Shown: positions 6,117-33,610 of the stretch, one piece after another
How the letters are laid out: each line of letters starts with the position of its first letter
How positions within the stretch are numbered: position 1 is the first letter of the stretch
NCBI GenBank assembly: GCA_018650645.1
Contig: JABIFP010000024.1
Coordinates: 1-44,631, forward strand
Direction: 5' to 3'
DNA length: 44,631 bases
From: Candidatus Magasanikiibacteriota bacterium
Lineage (GTDB): Bacteria > Patescibacteriota > Patescibacteriia > Magasanikbacterales > UBA922
Translations under genes and position numbers: made by a program
The notes under the pieces: generated by a model
The model's database searches: none
Seen by the model: the letters and a program-made list of their open reading frames with translations, nothing else
What the model was told of the DNA's origin: nothing

Positions 6117-7313
6117 ATGACATTATCCTTCGGAAAAATTCTAAAATCGCTATGTAACTGGGTGAGCTTCTATCTCAGCCATTGTATGCCAAGAAATAAA
6201 AATATTTGGATACATACCGGCTGGAGAAGGACTCCAGAACGCGAAACTTTTGGTGATAATGCCAAATACTTTTTTTTATATATTCAACAACATAAACCAA
6301 ATATTCGATCCATCTGGATTGCTCAAGACAAAAAGATGAGAGATCTTCTTAGGACGCATGGATATTCTTCATATACCCTTGATTCTTTTATGGGAATATA
6401 TCTTTCACTCAGAGCCGGAGTCACAATTGTGGATTCGAATCTACGAATTGCAAACTGGCGGCTATCTGGAAGAAGTCGATATATTCAACTCTGGCATGGT
6501 AAATCATTTAAAAAAATGGGAAAAATCAGTCCATATGGATCAACGTATAATAAATTTGTATCGCCGAATTTATTTGTTACATATGCATACATCGTTGCAG
6601 CGTCTCATCTACTTGGTAAATATCTTCTTCAAGGATTTGAACACAAAAAAAAGCACTTACTTATCTCAAGTTTACCTCGGTATGATGTATTCTTTAGCGA
6701 TATTCCCGGCTCAGATATTGATGAAGATACACAACTATCACAAAAAATCGATCAAGATAAGAAGGCTGGCTATGAATCCGTAGCGTTTTATGCCCCAACA
6801 TATCGTCCTGATGGAAGCAACCCACTAGAACATTTAGATCTTACCATGCTCAGCGATGCGCTATCGGTGTCGAATACAAAATGTTATATATCACTCCATC
6901 CAAAATGCTATAACAAAGATTGGAAAAAACCTGACGGATATCAGCATATTGAATTTATCCAAACCGTATTAGATATTTATCCTATATTCAAGAAATTTTC
7001 TGTTATTATTACAGATTATTCCTCTATGGCAATCGATGCTCTTCTTTGCAATGTTCCATCCGTTATATATGCATACGATGAAAGTACCTATCGTGTCAGT
7101 ATGGGAATTCATGACGAGCTTTGGGATGCCTTTCCAGCGCACAAAACGCATACGATGCCTAAACTCTGTAAGATTTTGAAAGAAAAAGACTATGCTTGGA
7201 ATGCCTCTTTTCAGCAAACAAAAGAGAAATTCTTTACTTTTTCTTCGCTTCATGGTTATAATGAGCAGGCCTCATCAAGGCGAATATACGAAGCTATTGA
7301 AAAAATACTCTGA
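6117..7313 (+). CDS. CDP-glycerol glycerophosphotransferase family protein (TagB/TagF-like)
   Basis: This 398-residue protein matches the Glyphos_transf family (PF04464). IQLWHGKSFKKMG is at about 123-135, YAPTYR at 225-230, a His-Pro pair at 261-262, and ITDYSSMAIDALL at 298-310. These contain the conserved His, Arg and Asp-Tyr-Ser-Ser positions of TagB/TagF enzymes, which transfer alcohol phosphates from CDP-glycerol or CDP-ribitol to glycan or wall teichoic acid acceptors. It begins 33 nt after gtrA and ends 4 nt before a hydroxyacid dehydrogenase. A cytidylyltransferase-like gene follows two genes later, so a CDP-linked donor may be made locally. The donor need not be CDP-glycerol. Confidence 0.85.
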   Translation: MTLSFGKILKSLCNWVSFYLSHCMPRNKNIWIHTGWRRTPERETFGDNAKYFFLYIQQHKPNIRSIWIAQDKKMRDLLRTHGYSSYTLDSFMGIYLSLRAGVTIVDSNLRIANWRLSGRSRYIQLWHGKSFKKMGKISPYGSTYNKFVSPNLFVTYAYIVAASHLLGKYLLQGFEHKKKHLLISSLPRYDVFFSDIPGSDIDEDTQLSQKIDQDKKAGYESVAFYAPTYRPDGSNPLEHLDLTMLSDALSVSNTKCYISLHPKCYNKDWKKPDGYQHIEFIQTVLDIYPIFKKFSVIITDYSSMAIDALLCNVPSVIYAYDESTYRVSMGIHDELWDAFPAHKTHTMPKLCKILKEKDYAWNASFQQTKEKFFTFSSLHGYNEQASSRRIYEAIEKIL

Positions 7314-7317
7314 TTTT

Positions 7318-8298
7318 ATGATCATGAAAGCGTTAATTACGGATCCAATTGATAGTTCTGGCCCAGAGCTTCTTGCGAGTAAGGGGATTGAAATCACTAC
7401 AAAAATTGGCCTATCTGCTGCAGAAATTGAAAAAATAGTTTCTGATTTTGATATTCTTATTTGCCGAACAAGCACAAAAGTAACCAAGCCTATTATCGCA
7501 GCAGCAAAAAAACTGCAGTGTATTGGTCTTGTATCAACAGGATGGGATCACATAGATATTCCAGAAGCAAATGTACATGGTATTGCTGTGCTTGGACTAC
7601 CGCCAAACAAAGACATAGATGTGACAAAAAAAGGAAGCTTTGTCCCCACATCAGAGCACGTGATTCTCTCTATGCTTGCAGCAGCTGGAAATTATTGCCA
7701 GGTGGTTGATGAGTTAAAACAAGGGAACTGGAATAAATTTGCCTTCCAAGGTACTGAACTCTTTCAAAAAACACTTGGGATCATTGGCTTTGGTCGCATT
7801 GGCCAGCTTGTATATGAACGAGCTACCGCCTTTGGTATGCGCATCCTAGTAAGTGATACAAGTAAACAAAAAAGTAATCAATTTCCTAATATTGAATTTG
7901 TCTCACAAGAAAATCTTGTTCAGGAAAGCGATTTCATCTCAATCCATGTTCATAAGAATGCTTCAACCATTGACCTTATCAATAAAGAAACATTTGCCAC
8001 AATGAAAAAAGGTGTTATTCTCATTAACACCTCAAGAGGAGGGATCATCAATGAATCAGATCTTTTAGAGGCATTAAACCTCGGTCTTGTCAGAGCTGCA
8101 GCAATTGATGTATACGACAATAGTAAGGGCAAATTACCAATGGACCTTATCACTCATCCACGTGTACTTGCCACCCCACATATTGCAGGCGTAAGTCTTG
8201 AAGGACAAAAACGCCAATCAATCGATACGGCCCAAAATATTCTTCAATATCTGTTTGATGGGGATACATCAAATATAATAAATTCTCCAAATACCTAA
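7318..8298 (+). CDS. D-isomer-specific 2-hydroxyacid dehydrogenase (phosphoglycerate dehydrogenase-like)
   Basis: This 326-residue protein has the usual two-domain layout. The N-terminal substrate half includes TGWDHIDIPEA at about 74-84. The Rossmann motif GFGRIG is at 157-162, with Asp180 ending strand 2 and thus NAD preference. The catalytic Arg240 lies in INTSRGG and His288 in TPHIAG. The third catalytic position, Glu in the DVFxxEP motif of SerA, aligns with Ser269 (DVYDNSK), so activity may be altered or an acid nearby may substitute. A charged insertion (NKDIDVTKKGSF, about 97-108) precedes the domain hinge. The start at 7318 is chosen, with 7324 as an alternative; the frame opens earlier at 7192 inside the TagF-like gene. 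A second, rearranged copy of this fold sits in the protein at 10219. Confidence 0.85.
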   Translation: MIMKALITDPIDSSGPELLASKGIEITTKIGLSAAEIEKIVSDFDILICRTSTKVTKPIIAAAKKLQCIGLVSTGWDHIDIPEANVHGIAVLGLPPNKDIDVTKKGSFVPTSEHVILSMLAAAGNYCQVVDELKQGNWNKFAFQGTELFQKTLGIIGFGRIGQLVYERATAFGMRILVSDTSKQKSNQFPNIEFVSQENLVQESDFISIHVHKNASTIDLINKETFATMKKGVILINTSRGGIINESDLLEALNLGLVRAAAIDVYDNSKGKLPMDLITHPRVLATPHIAGVSLEGQKRQSIDTAQNILQYLFDGDTSNIINSPNT

Positions 8299-8308
8299 AA
8301 CAACCACT

Positions 8309-9025
8309 ATGAAAGCTGTTATTATTGCCGGAGGACAAGGAAGACGACTTCTTCCTCACACAAAGGACAAGCCAAAGTGCCTTATGACGGTTCATGAGAA
8401 ACCCATTCTTGAATACCAGTTCGAGGCGCTTCGTCATGTTGGTATTACTGATATAGCTATTGTTAGTGGACACTGCCACGATCTTCTTAAAACATACACC
8501 GCTCAATATAACCATCCCGTTACCTTTATTGAGAATACAGATTTTGCTGACACAAATAATGCATACGGAATTTGGCTAGCCAAAGAATTTGTAGCAGATG
8601 ATCCAGAAGGGTTTCTCCTTATTAATTCTGACCTTGTGTTTCCTCCAGAGATGCTTGCCTTTCTTATTGATTCAAAAGAAAAGGATTGTATTATTATTGA
8701 AAAAAACACCGACCCAGAAAGTGACATGGTGAAGATAGAAATGAAGGGTAACGATATCATTGCAATGAGTAAAGATATTCCACCACAAAAAACAAGCGCT
8801 GAAGCCGTAGGGCCAGTGAAATTCTCTCAAGAAGGAGGAGCCTTGTTTATGGAATACCTTGAATCATTTGTAAAAAAGAATGAGCGTAATCACTGGTTCT
8901 TCTACAAACTTGGAGACTTTGCTAGAGATCATTTCTTTGCAGGTATCTACAACCCTGGTTTCGTTTGGGCAGAAATTGACACGTATGAAGACCTGCAACT
9001 GGCTCACGAACTGATTAACGTGTAA
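8309..9025 (+). CDS. Nucleotidyltransferase, LicC/PntC-like (CTP:phosphocholine or aminoalkylphosphonate cytidylyltransferase type)
   Basis: This 238-residue protein starts with the NTP_transferase signature AGGQGRRL (7-14) and KPKCLM (21-26). DTNNAYGIWLA (81-91) and NSDLV (106-110) follow, and the C-terminal WAEIDTYEDLQLA is near 220. The TNN-Y-WLA motif and the short length fit the LicC/PntC branch, which makes CDP-choline or CDP-2-aminoethylphosphonate, better than glucose-1-phosphate thymidylyltransferases, which are longer. Its placement after a TagF-like enzyme and before a class V aminotransferase supports activation of an amino-alcohol phosphate or phosphonate. That substrate is inference; a sugar-1-phosphate cannot be excluded. 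Confidence 0.75.
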   Translation: MKAVIIAGGQGRRLLPHTKDKPKCLMTVHEKPILEYQFEALRHVGITDIAIVSGHCHDLLKTYTAQYNHPVTFIENTDFADTNNAYGIWLAKEFVADDPEGFLLINSDLVFPPEMLAFLIDSKEKDCIIIEKNTDPESDMVKIEMKGNDIIAMSKDIPPQKTSAEAVGPVKFSQEGGALFMEYLESFVKKNERNHWFFYKLGDFARDHFFAGIYNPGFVWAEIDTYEDLQLAHELINV

Positions 9026-9030
9026 ATACT

Positions 9031-10203
9031 ATGATGAAACCGCTCGAATCTCCTCCTCTTGATAGGATTCTTGATGCACCTGTATCACAGTTATTTGAGC
9101 AGCATAAAGATATAGCAAGTCCTCTTGTTAATAGGCACATTCAAGAGGTGAAAAAAAAACGTGTTTCTCCAGAAGCTGTGAAGCTGCTCGGTGACGCAAA
9201 TCATGCCTACCTACAAGAAATAGAACAGGATCTTCATCTTCGCTATCATCATATTGATTTAACAACGCTATCAGATCTCGAAGCATACATTAATACCATC
9301 TTTTCAGAGGTTACTAAACATACTTCTTTTTTTGGAACATATCTTAAAGAAGAAGCTGCAATAAAGATACTTCAAACATGCCCACCACAAGATATCATGA
9401 ATTTTTTTCAAGTAAAGTGTGTCGATGATATTTTTCACCGTCTCAGTCCACTGAAAATAATTTCTCTATCCAGATATACGGAGCGACAATCATGGCAAAA
9501 AACATATATTTCCCTGCTTGAATCTTTACCAAAAGATGCATTTGAACAGAGGCAGATAACCCACTTTTGTTTTACGCATGACACATATAAAGAGCTTCTA
9601 CGTAATTCAAATCAGCCACAAAAATTATGGAACATGTCACATAATAAAGTAACCGGACAAATTTTGATCTATCACCAGACAGACCTTTCACATTTACGTA
9701 CACCGTACCTTCTCTATGCTCTGGTATTCATGCATTATATATATGAAACAAGTTGCGCCGGGGCATTTTATACGTATATGCAGGACAAAACCAACTATCT
9801 TGGTCAAGTTATGGTACAATCATTTACCAACTCAAAGGGACGTATTGAAGGGTTAGGCGCGAATGTGTATTCCGAAACAATCTTTTGGGCAAAAGGTGTC
9901 AATCTCTTTTTTTTATTAAACCCATCCAAGCATAGTGAAATGATTATATCGCACGCAGCATGTGGATATGCAAAAAAAGAATCTTCAAAACACATATCAA
10001 TGAATATAATCGATCATCTCTGGAATTTGAATGGAGTACCTGGGGCTCCACACCGGTATCATTTTCAAGAACAATTATGGACTACCATCTCTAAACAACT
10101 TTGCGAATCCTTGCAACACACATCCACGTTTGAAGAGCGTATACTCAAAAATCTTCATATGACAGATATGCAAATAGTTCCAATTATTTTTCCTCACCAA
10201 TAG
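9031..10203 (+). CDS. Protein of unknown function in the head-group cassette
   Basis: I do not recognise this 390-residue protein. It appears soluble: no signal peptide and no clear membrane segment. The N-terminal 120 residues are charged and helical. A better-ordered C-terminal half contains WNMSHNKVTGQILIYHQ (about 206-222), a Tyr/His-rich stretch (LLYALVFMHYIYETSCAGAFYTY), then IEGLGANVYSETIFWAKG and PGAPHRYHF near 340-347. The many conserved-looking His, Tyr and Trp residues hint at an enzyme. It starts 5 nt after the cytidylyltransferase stop, with tandem ATGs at 9031 and 9034, and ends 15 nt before the giant fusion enzyme, so it is expected to work in the same pathway. No family is proposed. 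Confidence 0.7.
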   Translation: MMKPLESPPLDRILDAPVSQLFEQHKDIASPLVNRHIQEVKKKRVSPEAVKLLGDANHAYLQEIEQDLHLRYHHIDLTTLSDLEAYINTIFSEVTKHTSFFGTYLKEEAAIKILQTCPPQDIMNFFQVKCVDDIFHRLSPLKIISLSRYTERQSWQKTYISLLESLPKDAFEQRQITHFCFTHDTYKELLRNSNQPQKLWNMSHNKVTGQILIYHQTDLSHLRTPYLLYALVFMHYIYETSCAGAFYTYMQDKTNYLGQVMVQSFTNSKGRIEGLGANVYSETIFWAKGVNLFFLLNPSKHSEMIISHAACGYAKKESSKHISMNIIDHLWNLNGVPGAPHRYHFQEQLWTTISKQLCESLQHTSTFEERILKNLHMTDMQIVPIIFPHQ

Positions 10204-10218
10204 ACTCATTGTACCAAT

Positions 10219-13200
10219 ATGTTTTTGTTAAGCGATCTCATTTCTCCACTCTCTGCTCATGTAATTCAGGGAATCAAGCAGGAATACGGACATCACCGTA
10301 CAGAGTGGTTTACAAAATTTCTTCAAAATATCAACCATTTTTTTACCGTTCACTGCCAGTCAGTTGTTGACCCAATTTTTCTTACTTCGAATAAAAATGG
10401 TGCATTTGAAGGACTTATTAGTGCGGCCGTTGGTCATAATGATCAAGTATTATCGGCACAAGAAGATGATTTTTCTAGATTTCTTTCAAATACATCTTGC
10501 CACATTGATAGATACACAGACCTAGAATCAATGAATAAACTTCTTCTTCATAAGAAATATACCATTGTTTTTTTATCAAAAGATATCTGTAATCAAGCAG
10601 TAGAAGACATTGCAGAAATTATTGACCAGATTAAACAAAGCTCTCCATCAACAATTGTGTTATGTGACTTGAGCTATGGATTTGCAAGTTCCTATTATGA
10701 TTTGTCTTTATTGAGTAAAGCGGATGCCTATATTATTTCACCAGAATATGCACTAGGATCAATTTCCGGGACTGTTCTATTGTTTATCAATAATCCCGAA
10801 AACTTTCCATGCACAGAAAATTATCCATCATTTACCTATGACATAGCCTTAGCTCTTAAAGCGTGGACCAATAAAAAAACAACCCCCTATTCACCAAATA
10901 TTTTTTCCGTAATTTCCCTGTCTTACGCAATTGATGTATTAAAAAATCTTCCTGGCGGAATTACGTCGCATGTGCAGCACCAACAAGCAACTGCAACGTT
11001 CGTCAGAAACTGCTTATATCATATATTTCCAGACAAATACATCTTTGAACACGGAAATTCACACTCTTTTGTAACTTGTGACACCGAGGAAGATGCTATT
11101 GCTATACAAGCATATCTTCGCGAACATGCAATGTATGCAAGTATCATTCATAGTGCATCTGATTGGAAAATTCGTATTGGTCATTTTGGATATGTTCCAA
11201 AAGAACATCTTAAGATTGTACAAAATGTGCTTCTTGCATATGCAAACACCGATCTAAAGCAACTTCATCAACGTACTGATAGTATTTTTTCAGCCGATGA
11301 TTATGTTGTGACGAAAGATGAAAGTTTGTTTTCTTCGCTGTTTACTATCGATGTGGAAGAATTTCATACAGCCTCAGTGTCAAAATTTGCCAAAATTTCG
11401 GATAAACAATTAAAAAACAAACTTACGAGCGGTGTACAACGTATATTCAAGTTTGATCAAACACAAATTTCACAATATTTACATAAACGGCATATTGGAT
11501 TTATTGGTGCTGGAAATACTGTTCGCGAAACAATTTCTATTTTACAAAAAATGGGTATCCACGATATTACCATATATTCACCAACATTACTCAATACAAA
11601 AGAGACAGCTAAACCCAATCAAAAACCACATAAGTATCCAGATTTTTGGACAGAAAAAAATATAAAAATTGCATCATCCGCAGAAGAAGTCTTTATGAAC
11701 TGCGAAACCGTTGTTCTACTACCTACATATTATACAAAACCGTCATCAGAGATAATGAAAAAAGATCCTGAATATATCAATGATCATCTAGTCAATAAAC
11801 AATTACTTGCCAACGTGCGTCACCATGGAAAAATGGATACACTTATTAATGCTTCAGCAAGATATAATTTAATTGATAGACAGGCACTTAAAGAAGCAGT
11901 TGATGATGGATGGCTACGTTTTTTTTCAGACGAATTACCGAGCGAAATACAAGAATATACGGATCCACTACAGTATCATGAGAACGTTACTTTTACAGGC
12001 CATATTGGTGGATCATGTAGGAGTACCAAAAAGAAAATTGCTCATAACACAAACAAAATTATTAAACACGTCTTATCAAAAGTATACAGCAATGTAGAAT
12101 TGCAAAATGATCTTCATTACGTACCAAATTGTGTCAATAAGCATGTCGCACCAGATGTGTGGAAATACGAAAAAACTTTTCATTCACCGCCACAGACACT
12201 TCGTGTACTACTTACTGATAAATTTGAAATAAATATATTAGATATTGAAGGACTGGCACAGGATTTTGATATTAAAATTGAGGTCAAAGATATCAGTCTG
12301 GATTCAATGTCAGAAAAACATCTCATCGACACATGTACAAATTTTGACCCCCACATCATACTTTTTCGTACCAGAACAGTTATTTCAGATACTGTTGCAA
12401 ATGCATTTCAATCCCTATCTCTCTTATTCTTAATTCGTCCAGGGGTTGGTATAGATAATATTTATCCTGGAATGGCCGAAATTTCACGCCAAGGAATTCA
12501 AATATACAATGAACCAACCGGTAATTCTCTTGCAGTCGGAGAAATGACGACATATTTTATCGTGAACTCTGAACCATCCCTCCTACTCGCACCAGGCCCA
12601 ACGAACTATTGCCCCGAAATTTTTTCATCTATTGATCAATATACTGATCCTAGAGATCCATCATATGTTGACACATATGCAAGTGTCAAAGCGCAACTAT
12701 CCTCATGGACGTCGCAAGACCTTCCAGCAATTATTAAATCCGCACCGAGTACAGCTTTTTTGGAATCTACCGTAACAAATGCTGTGTCGAATGAAGAAAT
12801 CGGACTTGTCATTTCGAATGGAAAATTTGGCAATAGATTTCATGAAATTTGCACACTTCACAAGAAACAACACTATTTTATTGATATTGATAATGAAGAT
12901 TGGGGTCAGCCGCACACTGTTGAAAAAATCTGCAAATATATTCATGAAAAGAATGCAATATCAAAGCAACCAATCTCATTTATGTGTTTACAGCAAAATG
13001 AGACCAGTACTGCCATTTCATATAAACCATATCATCTTAAACAAATTATTGAAGCATTGCGATCGTATGAACCACATTGTATTGTCATTATTGATGCAGT
13101 GAGTGGCTTTTTTGCCCATGATGTTCCGCAAAAAGAGCTTGATATCGATGCACTCATTATAGGATCCCAAAAAGCATTGGGGCTCTCTTCTGGCATTTCC

Positions 13201-13794
13201 TTTTTATCTCTTAGTGAACGATACGTGGAGAAATTACTCAGCCTCACGAAAAGTAATATATCTCTACAAGATTTTCTTAGATTAGAACCGCAAAAGGTCA
13301 AGGAAATTTATCATATTCTGGGGAAGCGACAAAAAGTTTTTTACACGAACATCTTAAAAGACTTTTACGAATCGTATCACAACCTACAACCAGATAGCGG
13401 AGGAGTATTTCATACCTTGTCTGCAAAAAAGTCATTAAATATTCTTGCAAAGAAAAATAAGACCGAACACCACGAATCTCGAAAGCAATACGCAAGCGCT
13501 GTCCGAAAAAAGTTACAAGAATTAGGATTCACAAAGATAGTTCCAGAAGCATATGCATCATATTCAGTTACTGCGGCTCATGTTCCTCCTGGTTTATCAG
13601 CGCCGAAACTTATTTCAACACTACGAAACAGATTTGGCATTAGTATTGCAGGCTCACAAATTCCATTATTTAGAGAAACAATGATTCGTATTGGACATTT
13701 TGGACATATTTCTCAATATGACATCGGCTACTTACTCCGATCACTAGATCGAGCAGTAGCCATTGAAAAGCGCACAAGATCACCTGAAAGTTAA
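10219..13794 (+). CDS. Giant fusion enzyme: degenerate class V aminotransferase, rearranged D-2-hydroxyacid dehydrogenase, intact class V aminotransferase
   Basis: This 1191-residue soluble protein has four recognisable parts. Residues 1-355 are a class V aminotransferase fold (HHRTEWF near 26; IRIGHFGYV near 325), but the PLP-lysine position reads Tyr177 (SPEYALG) and PGPT is lost, so it should be inactive. Residues 421-630 are the NAD-binding and catalytic half of a D-2-hydroxyacid dehydrogenase (GFIGAGNTVRE at 427-437, INASARYNLID, GHIGGS with His595). Residues 661-785 resemble that enzyme's N-terminal substrate half (LRVLLTD, RPGVGIDNI), placed after instead of before the Rossmann half. 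Residues 788-1185 are an intact aminotransferase of the serine-glyoxylate/AEP-transaminase group (APGPTNYC, QNETSTA, DAVSGFF, SQKALG with Lys985, IRIGHFGHI). It lies at the end of the cassette that starts at 6117. Substrates are unknown. Confidence 0.8.
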   Translation: MFLLSDLISPLSAHVIQGIKQEYGHHRTEWFTKFLQNINHFFTVHCQSVVDPIFLTSNKNGAFEGLISAAVGHNDQVLSAQEDDFSRFLSNTSCHIDRYTDLESMNKLLLHKKYTIVFLSKDICNQAVEDIAEIIDQIKQSSPSTIVLCDLSYGFASSYYDLSLLSKADAYIISPEYALGSISGTVLLFINNPENFPCTENYPSFTYDIALALKAWTNKKTTPYSPNIFSVISLSYAIDVLKNLPGGITSHVQHQQATATFVRNCLYHIFPDKYIFEHGNSHSFVTCDTEEDAIAIQAYLREHAMYASIIHSASDWKIRIGHFGYVPKEHLKIVQNVLLAYANTDLKQLHQRTDSIFSADDYVVTKDESLFSSLFTIDVEEFHTASVSKFAKISDKQLKNKLTSGVQRIFKFDQTQISQYLHKRHIGFIGAGNTVRETISILQKMGIHDITIYSPTLLNTKETAKPNQKPHKYPDFWTEKNIKIASSAEEVFMNCETVVLLPTYYTKPSSEIMKKDPEYINDHLVNKQLLANVRHHGKMDTLINASARYNLIDRQALKEAVDDGWLRFFSDELPSEIQEYTDPLQYHENVTFTGHIGGSCRSTKKKIAHNTNKIIKHVLSKVYSNVELQNDLHYVPNCVNKHVAPDVWKYEKTFHSPPQTLRVLLTDKFEINILDIEGLAQDFDIKIEVKDISLDSMSEKHLIDTCTNFDPHIILFRTRTVISDTVANAFQSLSLLFLIRPGVGIDNIYPGMAEISRQGIQIYNEPTGNSLAVGEMTTYFIVNSEPSLLLAPGPTNYCPEIFSSIDQYTDPRDPSYVDTYASVKAQLSSWTSQDLPAIIKSAPSTAFLESTVTNAVSNEEIGLVISNGKFGNRFHEICTLHKKQHYFIDIDNEDWGQPHTVEKICKYIHEKNAISKQPISFMCLQQNETSTAISYKPYHLKQIIEALRSYEPHCIVIIDAVSGFFAHDVPQKELDIDALIIGSQKALGLSSGISFLSLSERYVEKLLSLTKSNISLQDFLRLEPQKVKEIYHILGKRQKVFYTNILKDFYESYHNLQPDSGGVFHTLSAKKSLNILAKKNKTEHHESRKQYASAVRKKLQELGFTKIVPEAYASYSVTAAHVPPGLSAPKLISTLRNRFGISIAGSQIPLFRETMIRIGHFGHISQYDIGYLLRSLDRAVAIEKRTRSPES

Positions 13795-29731: not shown

Positions 29732-32700
29732 TTATGATGATGGTGGAACGTGAGTTTGAGTGTAGTCATCCAATCCAGGAACTAAACGACCTACGAACCA
29801 ATGTGCATCAGTTGTAGAATCTACAGTTCCAGAGTTATCAGTCCACACGAATGAACCAAGATCTGAAGAATCAGATGCATCAGCATCGTCTTCTGCATTT
29901 GTGTTTGTTTGAGCACTTACAGTTGTAGTTGTTTCATCATCGATAGTTACCTTCAATGAATCACCAGCTGCAAAGCTTGCGAGTGTCGCACGTACACGAT
30001 ATGACTTCGAAGCACCCTCAGAAATATTTTCTACACTTGAAAGAGCAATCACAAGTCTATTTTGAGTTGTGTTACTTGTAAATGTAGCAGTAATTTCTGT
30101 GTTACTTGAGTCGTAGAGCTTTAGGTTTGGTGTTTGACCTACACATTCAAAGATAGTTGCTCCAGCTGCACAGCTTCCGCTGATATCAAGAGCAATTTGA
30201 CTCCATGCAAGGTCCCCAGCAGCATTAGCTGCAACGCTAAACTCAAAGATGTTTGATGCACCATTGATCAATGTCGCAGACGCATCTTTTCCATTATTAG
30301 TAACAGTTCCGATTCCTGCCATAGAAAGGGTAGGAATAGTTCTGTATGCAGAGAGAGTGTTCGCTTCAAGAGCAGAAGCTGGGTCAGTGTAAGTTCCACT
30401 CACAGTAATTGTCTGTGAGTTTGGAAGTGTTGATGTAACACCATCTGAATCACCAGCATTCATGATTGACATTGTATTTCCATTTCCAGCTGAAAGCGCT
30501 GTCAATGAGTACAATGATGGTCGTGAAATAACCTGTGTTTCAGCTACTTGACTGATACTGTTGTATCGAGCGTATAGGCTTGCTTTCACAGTACCATCTT
30601 CAGGAACCTCGATTGGAGTTCCTTCGATGTCGAAGTGAAGTTCACCATCAGACATTACTCGGCCCATTACCTTTGATCCTCCAACGTAGAGGTCCCAACC
30701 AGCTACACGTGCATCTGATGCAGATGAGCTAGCAGTTCCTGCTGCGTTTAAGTTTGCAAAGTATAGGTCAGTAACTTGGATGTCATCGTCTTCTGCGATG
30801 AATCTCCATCGTCCAACCTCTACGCCAGTGTCATCACTTGCGTCAGCAACAACGAGTGCAGTGTTTGGAGTATCTCCATCAACACCAACACGCAAGATTC
30901 CTCCAGTTACAAAGTCAATTGATTGACCTGTCACATCGTAAGTAGTTCCTGAAGTAAATCCAGAAACATCTTCACCTTCAGCATCATCGATGTCTGAATC
31001 TGAGGCATCCATTGTTACTACTACAGAAGTAGTTGCTCCTAGTGATGACTGCAAGTCACAGTACAACCCAAGTTCAGCTTGCGCTGAAGAAGCAATGTCA
31101 AGACGCATGTTGTTGAATGTAAGAGCACCAGAATTGTTTAGGTCATCTGTGTCTCCGATACCTGTAGCACCGTCATCATCAGATACGAAACAGTTAGTGA
31201 TCTTTGTGTAGTTTGAAGAGAGATATGATGAAGAACCTCCATCAGTCAACATGTCGAAATTCAATGTGTTCACACGAATATCTGATGCTGATCCTGCTTC
31301 TACTACGAATTGCAAGAGCAATTGATCTGAAGCACCAGCTACGAAGTTCTCACCTGATGAGTATCCATCATTTCTAGTAAGAGCTACTGATGCAGCGTTG
31401 ATTTCGATCAATCGTGATGTAGCTGTACCTGTTCGGTTAGCAGCTGCAACGTTGTCTCCACTTGAAACGTATTCTGGGTCTTGGAAATGATTTGAGTCAG
31501 ATCCACTAATCCAGAATTTGTATTGACTTGTAGCATCAGCTGCTTCTTCAAGATCAATAACAAGTGTTAATAGGTCATCGTCAACAAGTTCGAATGAACT
31601 GTTGAAGTTGTAGTACCATTCGTAGTCTCCAATGTCTCCAGCTGGAGCTGTTGAAGAAGCAGTAACAGTAGTAAGTGATGAACCAATACGATCATCATTG
31701 ATGTACAATTCAGCACGTTCAATGTCACCATTGATTTCCGCAAGAGAATTCACAGTACTTGTTGAGTCTCCGTGAAGCCATAATTGCAATCCATCAACTT
31801 GGATCTTTTGTCCAACGTCCACTCGCGCTACCATAGCAACGATATCATGTGTTGCAGGTGCGTAAGTTTCATTTGACGGTGAACTTACGTCAAGAGAAAC
31901 AGTAAACTGCCCAGCATCCAAAGTATACGTTTGGAGTTGGTTAGTAGCAGTACCGTTCAAGCTGTTTGTAACAGAAGCTCCAAATCCGCTCAATTCACGT
32001 ACGTGAAGGTCACGGTTGTTTTCAAGCTCCCAAATTACAGTTTCAGCGTCGTCTCCATCAGAGATGTCAGCTCGAATTTCGTATGTTCGGTCTTTTCCGT
32101 CTTCAATAAGACGAGCATCTTCCATGAACATGAAAGTTACGTAGTCTCCCCACATAGAAATACCACTGGTAACTTCTTCACCATCGTAGTAAAGACCAAG
32201 GTTTTCCATGTTAGCAGTGTTCAATGTACCTTCATTCTTCAATCGAACGTAAACAATTTCACCGTCTTTTTCGTTTGATGAACTGAAGTCCAAGTTGAAC
32301 TCACCAGTAACGATTCCTTCGTCACCAACTTCAATGTCAGATGATGCACCTTTTTCGTCAATAGTGATTGCTGCTGGAGTATAGTTTGAGTAACTCATCA
32401 AGTTACCACGCACTGGGAAAGATCCCATTACGTTAGCTCCGTTTGCGTCAACAAGGTCAGCTCTAGCAATTTGGAAACCATCTTGCATTGAGTTGTCTGC
32501 ACCAGTTGAAACAAGGTTTGCTACCAAGTCAAATTCAACAGTATTATTCGCACCAACAGTGTATTGTGGGCGAAGTGTTACTGAATCGTCACTACTTACA
32601 CTTTGTTCGTTTGATACTGGGAATCCATCAACTTCTAACCAAACTTTATCAAAGTTTGAGTCATCACCTTGACCAATTCTTTCGAATTGAATTTCGTCAA

Positions 32701-33610
32701 GAGTAGCTGATTCAGATCCAGCGCGAACGCGGAATGAAAGGTAGTTAACGTGTGTTGCTTTGTCAGGAGTAAGAGCAGATGCTGGAGTTCCAGCGCTAAG
32801 GCTCAAAGTAAGGTCACCTGCTGGAGTTTCCTCAGCTGGTTCTTCACCTTCTTCTACTTCCTCTTCTACTTCTTCTTCTGATCCTTGTGCAGGATCAGCA
32901 ACTACAGTAGCTGCAGTTACAGAATCACCTGAGTCTGCAACAGTTTCGAGTACTTCAGCTGAAACAACGCGAACGTCGCCAGCAGCTGGAGCTGGAAGGT
33001 CACCTGAAATTTCGTGACGCATTCCGTCCCAAACGTACCATAGAGTATCGTCACCTTCTACACGAACGATTTGACCGTTGTGTGGAGTTGCTTCAGTGAT
33101 GTCAGAACCTTCACCATAGTTAGCCCAGTGGAATGGAGAAACGTCTCTTACGAGAGTAGCCCATGCTGGTCCGTATAGTGCGATTGCGATAGCTTCTGAA
33201 GCGATCCAGTGACGCATGTTATCTGGTCCTACTGCGTATACTTTTGAATCAGTTGTGATCTTCACAAGGCGTGATCCATGTCGGAAAGTAACACCTGGTT
33301 GATCAAGATCAAGTGGGAAAGCCCCAGCTTGAGACAGTGACAAGTGGTTTAAACCAGCAAAGTCAGCCTGCCATGATCGATGAGTTTCCCCATTTGGGAA
33401 GTATCGTGATTTCATTCCTTCTGTTACCAAGAAAACAGCTTTGTCTCCTGATTCAGGAACGTCAAAGATGTCACCTGGCTCTAGTTCAACAGTTCCTTCA
33501 GCTTGAGCGATAGCAGGCAAGAAAGCCGCTACACCCATGCTCCAAGCAATTGTCATGAGAACTACAGACCATGTGAATCCTTTTTTTGTAAGAGTCATTA
33601 CATTAGTCAT
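29732..33610 (-). CDS. Large secreted S-layer-like surface protein
   Basis: This 1292-residue protein has a signal peptide (basic MTNVMTLTKKGF, hydrophobic core, AIAQAEG cleavage near residue 37). Residues 40-230 hold short motifs around FPNGETHRSW, VYAVGPDNMRHWIASEA and LWYVWDGMRHEI, similar to N-terminal domains of large surface proteins of Patescibacteria. An acidic linker of Glu/Pro follows at about 243-262. The remaining ~1000 residues are Asp/Ser/Thr-rich beta-type repeats with very few Cys and no catalytic motif. Codon use is uniform, with favoured codons repeated, as in highly expressed genes. A hairpin-rich leader precedes it and a strong terminator follows. It is probably the main S-layer-like coat protein and may be the glycan acceptor. 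Function is inferred from composition and context. Confidence 0.8.
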   Translation of the reverse strand: MTNVMTLTKKGFTWSVVLMTIAWSMGVAAFLPAIAQAEGTVELEPGDIFDVPESGDKAVFLVTEGMKSRYFPNGETHRSWQADFAGLNHLSLSQAGAFPLDLDQPGVTFRHGSRLVKITTDSKVYAVGPDNMRHWIASEAIAIALYGPAWATLVRDVSPFHWANYGEGSDITEATPHNGQIVRVEGDDTLWYVWDGMRHEISGDLPAPAAGDVRVVSAEVLETVADSGDSVTAATVVADPAQGSEEEVEEEVEEGEEPAEETPAGDLTLSLSAGTPASALTPDKATHVNYLSFRVRAGSESATLDEIQFERIGQGDDSNFDKVWLEVDGFPVSNEQSVSSDDSVTLRPQYTVGANNTVEFDLVANLVSTGADNSMQDGFQIARADLVDANGANVMGSFPVRGNLMSYSNYTPAAITIDEKGASSDIEVGDEGIVTGEFNLDFSSSNEKDGEIVYVRLKNEGTLNTANMENLGLYYDGEEVTSGISMWGDYVTFMFMEDARLIEDGKDRTYEIRADISDGDDAETVIWELENNRDLHVRELSGFGASVTNSLNGTATNQLQTYTLDAGQFTVSLDVSSPSNETYAPATHDIVAMVARVDVGQKIQVDGLQLWLHGDSTSTVNSLAEINGDIERAELYINDDRIGSSLTTVTASSTAPAGDIGDYEWYYNFNSSFELVDDDLLTLVIDLEEAADATSQYKFWISGSDSNHFQDPEYVSSGDNVAAANRTGTATSRLIEINAASVALTRNDGYSSGENFVAGASDQLLLQFVVEAGSASDIRVNTLNFDMLTDGGSSSYLSSNYTKITNCFVSDDDGATGIGDTDDLNNSGALTFNNMRLDIASSAQAELGLYCDLQSSLGATTSVVVTMDASDSDIDDAEGEDVSGFTSGTTYDVTGQSIDFVTGGILRVGVDGDTPNTALVVADASDDTGVEVGRWRFIAEDDDIQVTDLYFANLNAAGTASSSASDARVAGWDLYVGGSKVMGRVMSDGELHFDIEGTPIEVPEDGTVKASLYARYNSISQVAETQVISRPSLYSLTALSAGNGNTMSIMNAGDSDGVTSTLPNSQTITVSGTYTDPASALEANTLSAYRTIPTLSMAGIGTVTNNGKDASATLINGASNIFEFSVAANAAGDLAWSQIALDISGSCAAGATIFECVGQTPNLKLYDSSNTEITATFTSNTTQNRLVIALSSVENISEGASKSYRVRATLASFAAGDSLKVTIDDETTTTVSAQTNTNAEDDADASDSSDLGSFVWTDNSGTVDSTTDAHWFVGRLVPGLDDYTQTHVPPSS

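Follow-up and report, generated by a model that had tools for sequence, protein, structure and literature searches.

A putative single-chain aminotransferase pseudo-dimer enclosing a circularly permuted D-2-hydroxyacid dehydrogenase in a Candidatus Magasanikiibacteriota bacterium

The window analyzed here is a 44,631-nucleotide stretch of a Candidatus Magasanikiibacteriota genome (assembly GCA_018650645.1, contig JABIFP010000024.1), and at positions 10219–13794 of its forward strand it encodes a 1191-residue protein that joins two kinds of enzyme in one chain. The order of domains is a dead class V aminotransferase (AT1), the nicotinamide adenine dinucleotide (NAD)-binding half of a D-2-hydroxyacid dehydrogenase, the substrate-binding half of that dehydrogenase, and a live class V aminotransferase (AT2). 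We propose that AT1 and AT2 are sister copies of an AGT/SerC-type aminotransferase that would fold against each other, with AT2 giving the pyridoxal phosphate (PLP) lysine and its own-site residues, and AT1 giving the residues that a partner subunit normally lends, such that each chain would contain a single composite active site. In this lineage a permuted dehydrogenase of the phosphoglycerate dehydrogenase (PGDH) type sits between the two copies, and the resulting two-function, single-chain enzyme would make an amino acid from a three-carbon 2-oxo acid that is phosphorylated or acidic in some other way. The product is predicted to feed the nucleotidyltransferase and TagF-like transferase of the same operon, which would place a cytidine diphosphate (CDP)-activated group onto a surface glycan. 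Taken as a whole, we regard this proposal as moderately probable.

The gene is a single uninterrupted frame in which codon fit and GC content are even over all segments, and an assembly or frameshift artefact, or a chimaeric insert, is therefore unlikely; the host genome is about 1.04 Mb and Patescibacteria-like. Sequence searches of Pfam, NCBIfam and PDB place a class V aminotransferase at approximately residues 785–1180, with the Aminotran_5 family (PF00266) matching at an E value of 5.7e-10 and 39.1 bits (cut-off 21.5), best over residues 939–1009. This domain, AT2, keeps the PLP lysine (Lys985) and Asp959. AT1 is too divergent for Pfam detection and was identified instead by end-to-end alignment with class V aminotransferases and with a homologue in Candidatus Komeilibacteria bacterium RIFOXYD1_FULL_37_29, a member of the same class and the one homologue found (locus L047 8927–11023, identical to L059). 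AT1 lacks the catalytic lysine that characterizes class V aminotransferases, having Tyr177 at that position, where the Komeilibacteria protein has Arg.

The Komeilibacteria homologue is encoded in an operon of five genes that match those of the present operon in kind and order, namely a TagF-like transferase, a dehydrogenase, a nucleotidyltransferase, a member of an unannotated family referred to here as U390, and the AT1–AT2 protein itself. It has the same position and neighbours as the 1191-residue protein, the same succession of a dead AT1 and a live AT2, 35% identity, and the same pattern of residue loss; it differs in being 698 residues long, with no dehydrogenase between the copies and a shorter AT1. 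Because the AT1 domains of the two genomes pair with each other in a maximum-likelihood tree, as do the AT2 domains (each with 100/99 support), the tree places the aminotransferase duplication before the split of the two lineages, as one shared event, and most simply the loss of the lysine from both AT1s as well.

In class V aminotransferase dimers some of the active-site residues are supplied by the other subunit (PMC6797613). The residues lent by the partner in Arabidopsis AGT1 are Tyr35′, Arg36′ and Thr250′, the last adjoining Pro251, whose replacement by leucine inactivates the enzyme, and for the first of these two positions the equivalents in the Escherichia coli phosphoserine aminotransferase (PSAT) are His41′ and, for the second, Arg42′ (PMC6797613); in mosquito enzymes the neighbour's Tyr256 and Thr259 serve the PLP phosphate (PMC10125267). 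Both aminotransferase copies from both genomes were audited against 78 single-copy aminotransferases at positions taken from published structures, with Ser/Thr exchange allowed and Lys accepted for the substrate Arg; the comparison itself was conceived after the alignment had been viewed. A complementary pattern of decay is evident, which the initial annotation had overlooked. The dead copies keep 8/8 of the lent positions (as GHHR and TP[YF]SP) and 7/22 of the own-site positions, and the live copies keep 3/8 and 18/22, respectively (Fisher tests give p values of 0.002 for the dead and 0.03 for the live copies, which are descriptive, the cells being non-independent). The Komeilibacteria AT1 is the more extreme of the two in size, with about 90–100 residues of its own active-site half gone and both GHHR and TPFSP retained. 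Survival of the lent residues in AT1 and of the own-site residues in AT2 is most readily explained if the two copies pair within the chain as a pseudo-dimer that has a single composite active site.

The dehydrogenase is recovered in two parts. The 2-Hacid_dh_C family (PF02826) matches with an E value of 2.6e-10 and 40.4 bits (cut-off 25.1), best over residues 521–597, the 2-Hacid_dh family (PF00389) matches a stretch from residue 684 with an E value of 5.8e-6 and 26.5 bits (cut-off 24.6), and NCBIfam and PDB searches identify PGDH at residues 662–782 and 521–617. A 308-position profile built from a panel of 27 D-2-hydroxyacid dehydrogenases finds exactly two matches, in swapped order, with model positions 137–303 at residues 421–621 (23.5 bits) and positions 12–110 at residues 674–783 (29.1 bits); none of 2000 shuffles exceeded 6.0 bits. 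The two matches are complementary and do not overlap, leaving uncovered just the hinge helix and the outermost ends, and the usual order of substrate half, NAD half and C-terminal tail is violated. Because the matches are complementary and reversed, the dehydrogenase is, by these sequence comparisons, circularly permuted at the interdomain hinge, and its new ends coincide with that hinge, the point of attachment of AT1 and AT2. In D-2-hydroxyacid dehydrogenases the native N and C termini both belong to the substrate domain, so joining them through the linker of about 30 residues present here is feasible. The initial annotation of this DNA, made from the sequence alone, had described a dead aminotransferase, a dehydrogenase with transposed halves and a live aminotransferase in one chain, and had set in advance the recovery of a D-2-hydroxyacid dehydrogenase in residues 661–785 as the test of the permutation; the profile searches and alignments bear out all of this, with that segment recovered by Pfam, NCBIfam and PDB searches alike and with Tyr177 and Lys985 both falling in the catalytic lysine column.

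Two AlphaFold2 models, confined to residues 400–790, were made of this region. The first is confident for the NAD half, and for that half alone. The second was built from an alignment with rows for both halves, chosen from 488 trial row combinations by the correct placement of the halves, a choice made after the first model and blind to the resulting second one; its predicted local distance difference test (pLDDT) score is 67.8 and its predicted template modelling (pTM) score 0.67. Foldseek searches with the model return D-2-hydroxyacid dehydrogenases and their relatives (formate dehydrogenase, CtBP) at whole-query TM-scores of about 0.30–0.35, low values that are expected because a permuted chain is compared sequentially. 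In trees the substrate half places with SerA (90% SH-aLRT, the Shimodaira-Hasegawa-like approximate likelihood ratio test) and the NAD half is too divergent to place, and the source of the two halves is not fixed by them. We note that the free-standing dehydrogenase of the operon has an insert, KDIDVTKKGSF, near the hinge, common to the Komeilibacteria gene. A derivation of the embedded module as a copy of the operon's own dehydrogenase was rejected, as the module lacks this insert and groups apart in the tree.

Several observations weigh against the proposal. Of the four lent positions, two are still occupied in AT2 by Arg and Ser (the placement of the Arg varies with the alignment), the full architecture is present in one genome and the dead/live pair in two, the second AlphaFold2 model is of moderate quality, and the substrate assignment considered below rests on remote similarity. 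The NAD half of the dehydrogenase also departs from the GxGxxG motif (GAGNTV, with Val435 in place of the third Gly) and keeps 11/27 near-invariant sites compared to 7/9 in the substrate half; the conserved His at position 501 is Leu, RG is changed to RY and PH to GH, and its end branch in the tree is very long (7.14 vs 3.1). With the cofactor motif eroded and the NAD half divergent, activity of the embedded dehydrogenase is thus uncertain, and it may be inactive. These same changes, together with a Komeilibacteria operon that has one free dehydrogenase and no embedded module, would fit an aminotransferase pseudo-dimer in which the permuted module is an inactive spacer, substrate-binding or assembly domain and the free-standing operon dehydrogenase does the redox chemistry. 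However, the Arg/Glu/His triad of the module is complete (Arg548, Glu576 and His595), and the free-standing dehydrogenase, with its cofactor motif intact, carries Ser at the position of the catalytic Glu and may not be the better enzyme; we take an inactive module to be a credible possibility, short of an expectation. That the module is an active, naturally permuted PGDH-type enzyme inside a one-site pseudo-dimer, with oxidation to the 2-oxo acid and transamination combined in one chain to supply a building block of a novel Patescibacteria surface group activated by CDP, seems to us doubtful when all of its parts are taken together. The two aminotransferase copies might also not cooperate at all, with AT2 forming homodimers between chains and AT1 persisting as a functionless, decaying duplicate, as could be read from its long branch in the 1191-residue protein (2.72 in the aminotransferase tree) and the loss of most of its own-site residues. 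Yet AT1 keeps every lent position across two lineages where AT2 has lost 5/8, and both genomes retain the dead copy in the same location, which makes this alternative improbable.

As to what the enzyme may make, the initial annotation pointed to the chemistry of the phosphorylated serine pathway, and this holds in part. Second only to the Komeilibacteria homologue, the single-copy proteins most similar to AT2 come from Clostridia (L060, L061 and L067), where they are encoded immediately upstream of SerA genes; these SerA genes also rank among the best relatives of the substrate half of the dehydrogenase. The His-Arg pair that AT1 would lend matches the acidic-substrate pair of PSAT; it is conserved in all 78 reference aminotransferases and does not single out phosphoserine. 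While the operon relatives and the lent pair favour the suggestion, none of the equivalog models reaches its cut-off, with 56.5 bits against 454 for SerA (TIGR01327), 17.2 against 477 for SerC (PRK03080), and 94.8 against 360.8 for aminoethylphosphonate transaminase (TIGR03301, on AT2). The LicC/PntC-like nucleotidyltransferase and TagF-like transferase of the operon suggest a CDP-activated surface group, and we tentatively put forward as substrate a phosphorylated three-carbon 2-oxo acid, possibly 3-phosphohydroxypyruvate giving phosphoserine, destined for such a group. A role in the aminoethylphosphonate pathway could be read from the TIGR03301 match, from the resemblance of the nucleotidyltransferase to PntC, and from the presence of phosphoenolpyruvate (PEP) mutase operons in other genomes of the class. 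That match is nevertheless far under its cut-off, and no PEP mutase was found in either of the two genomes with the operon, although the search was positive in two control genomes (G114 and G504); the phosphonate substrates considered in the initial annotation are consequently not supported, and we view this pathway as very improbable.

The architecture is rare. No orthologue was found among the 86 genomes searched of the host's order, none with the full architecture in approximately 1,985 genome searches of the phylum (overlapping draws), and none in peptide-pattern scans of genome and viral contigs, from which near genomes may be left out and distant relatives missed; searches of plasmids and phages returned ordinary transaminases only. 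With two members to compare, the dehydrogenase may equally have been gained in the host lineage or lost in Komeilibacteria. Partial duplication of an aminotransferase-dehydrogenase unit, as proposed in the initial annotation, is a candidate origin, and the closest homologue is an aminotransferase pair without any dehydrogenase. A dehydrogenase permuted by duplication and truncation may have been inserted into the linker between AT1 and AT2, which fits the hinge junctions. A different origin, compatible with the same pseudo-dimer mechanism, would begin with an aminotransferase nested in the dehydrogenase hinge, followed by tandem duplication and loss of the outer halves, and by loss of the middle dehydrogenase in Komeilibacteria. 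No search brought to light an intermediate of either route. Both junctions between aminotransferase and dehydrogenase do lie at the hinge, as the nested origin requires; however, a simple hinge permutation spliced into the AT1–AT2 linker predicts the same junctions, and the required order of substrate half, aminotransferase and NAD half was not noticed in the same genome searches or in the collection scans, so we consider a nested origin unlikely.

Other loci with aminotransferase sequences were noted. At G1175:C9:1725-2453 the C-terminal part of an aminotransferase and a dehydrogenase substrate half share a 688-residue frame, with a stop inside one match, which is possibly an aminotransferase-SerA fusion or a pair of overlapping genes. 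A class V aminotransferase gene adjoins a large dehydrogenase gene at four loci (L018, L019, L020 and L058), and at L019 the latter is by Pfam a HAD-SerA-ACT fusion, i.e. SerB-SerA, beside the transaminase. A 1568-residue frame at L013 3795–8498 has FAD-binding-4 near residues 226–302 and an aminotransferase-like stretch near 1084–1235.

Pairs of one live and one dead PLP enzyme occur in other families, such as the glycine decarboxylase P-protein and serine palmitoyltransferase LCB1/LCB2, where the half without the lysine supports the live half; these belong to other PLP families and have no dehydrogenase, and LCB1 and LCB2 are separate chains. By sequence the aminotransferases described here have the class V fold of AGT and serine-glyoxylate aminotransferases (e.g. 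Arabidopsis AGT1, PDB 6pk1), and AT2 largely keeps the PLP lysine, Asp, Arg and phosphate cup, whereas known members of that family are homodimers with two live sites. Compared to SerA and other D-2-hydroxyacid dehydrogenases, both domains, the catalytic triad and the substrate-loop motif are recognizable, but the halves are reversed, the dinucleotide motif is eroded and the module is embedded between aminotransferases. The PGDH-PSAT fusions of oomycetes, brown algae and Thecamonas likewise place a dehydrogenase and a phosphoserine-type transaminase in one chain, but they are eukaryotic, with the dehydrogenase N-terminal and a SerC-type transaminase C-terminal, and a dead copy was not reported (PMC5715807). 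The PntC-AEPT fusion of Treponema denticola (PDB 6pd1) similarly ties a LicC/PntC-type nucleotidyltransferase to a class V aminotransferase for surface decoration; in that case the aminotransferase is fused to the nucleotidyltransferase, in a phosphonate pathway with PEP mutase, and there is no dehydrogenase (PMC6697681). In the open literature we encountered neither a permuted D-2-hydroxyacid dehydrogenase nor a pseudo-dimer of the AGT type in a single chain, subscription papers being outside the scope.

The coordinates of the operon genes, domains and key residues are given in Table 1. The two proteins of the host genome that score over the PF02826 cut-off are both encoded in this operon. 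U390 has no Pfam, NCBIfam, PHROG or credible PDB match; distant homologues occur in seven other genomes of the class (L048–L054), adjoined in 7/7 by a D-2-hydroxyacid dehydrogenase gene, and those operons contain, by appearance, split transketolase genes, RpiB, Rpe, and phosphatase-like and glycerate-kinase-like genes. Elsewhere in the window, positions 29732–33610 encode a 1292-residue protein with no Pfam match at 1e-4, near an O-antigen ligase-like gene, and positions 22–1584, where the polysaccharide cluster has its edge, encode a protein that combines Cu-binding MopE-like motifs with an FGE-sulfatase domain.

Table 1. Operon genes, protein segments and diagnostic residues, in window positions.
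Feature	Position	Strand	Basis
Gene 1, CDP-glycerol glycerophosphotransferase-like (TagB/TagF-like) transferase	6117..7313	+	PF04464, E 1.2e-39; order kept in Komeilibacteria
Gene 2, free-standing unpermuted PGDH-like dehydrogenase	7318..8298	+	PF02826, E 7.5e-53; order kept in Komeilibacteria
Gene 3, LicC/PntC-like nucleotidyltransferase	8309..9025	+	PF12804; best PDB matches 1jyk LicC, 6pd1 PntC-AEPT
Gene 4, U390, unannotated family	9031..10203	+	35% homologue in Komeilibacteria locus
AT1, degenerate class V aminotransferase domain, residues 1-350	10219..11268	+	Full-length alignment to class V aminotransferases and Komeilibacteria AT1
His26-Arg27 of AT1, counterpart of partner-lent Tyr35′-Arg36′ (Arabidopsis AGT1) and His41′-Arg42′ (E. 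coli PSAT)	10294..10299	+	Alignment, PMC6797613
Tyr177 in catalytic Lys column of AT1 (Arg in Komeilibacteria homologue)	10747..10749	+	Alignment
Thr222-Pro-Tyr-Ser-Pro226 of AT1, loop predicted to be lent to partner's PLP phosphate site (Thr250′-Pro251′ of Arabidopsis AGT1)	10882..10896	+	Alignment, PMC6797613, PMC10125267
Linker, residues 351-405	11269..11433	+	No family match; codon fit as in neighbours
Dehydrogenase NAD-binding half and C-terminal tail, residues 406-650	11434..12168	+	PF02826, panel profile, structure search
Degenerate dinucleotide motif Gly430-Ala-Gly432-Asn-Thr-Val435, third Gly lost	11506..11523	+	Site audit
Arg548, catalytic Arg of dehydrogenase	11860..11862	+	Site audit
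Glu576, catalytic Glu of dehydrogenase	11944..11946	+	Site audit
His595, catalytic His of dehydrogenase	12001..12003	+	Site audit
Dehydrogenase substrate-binding (N-terminal) half, residues 661-785, after NAD half	12199..12573	+	PF00389, TIGR01327, PDB phosphoglycerate dehydrogenases
AT2, live class V aminotransferase domain, residues 786-1191 and stop	12574..13794	+	PF00266, TIGR03301, 3f0h, 6pk1
Lys985, PLP lysine of AT2	13171..13173	+	Alignment column of catalytic lysine
Pro1058-Asp-Ser-Gly1061 of AT2, decayed counterpart of lent T-P-[FY]-T-P loop	13390..13401	+	Alignment

A dead and a live transaminase around a dehydrogenase with swapped halves is a rare wiring of two enzymes into one chain, and the dehydrogenase itself appears to be a naturally occurring circular permutant of a D-2-hydroxyacid dehydrogenase, opened at the hinge. 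The aminotransferase pair would be a natural case of a homodimeric enzyme with shared sites turned into a one-site, one-chain pseudo-dimer, in which the roles of the subunits are legible from the residues that each copy has kept, and the Komeilibacteria form without the dehydrogenase provides a ready comparison. The operon, which includes an unannotated partner protein, appears to mark a so far undescribed surface modification linked to CDP, in bacteria whose genomes measure about one megabase.

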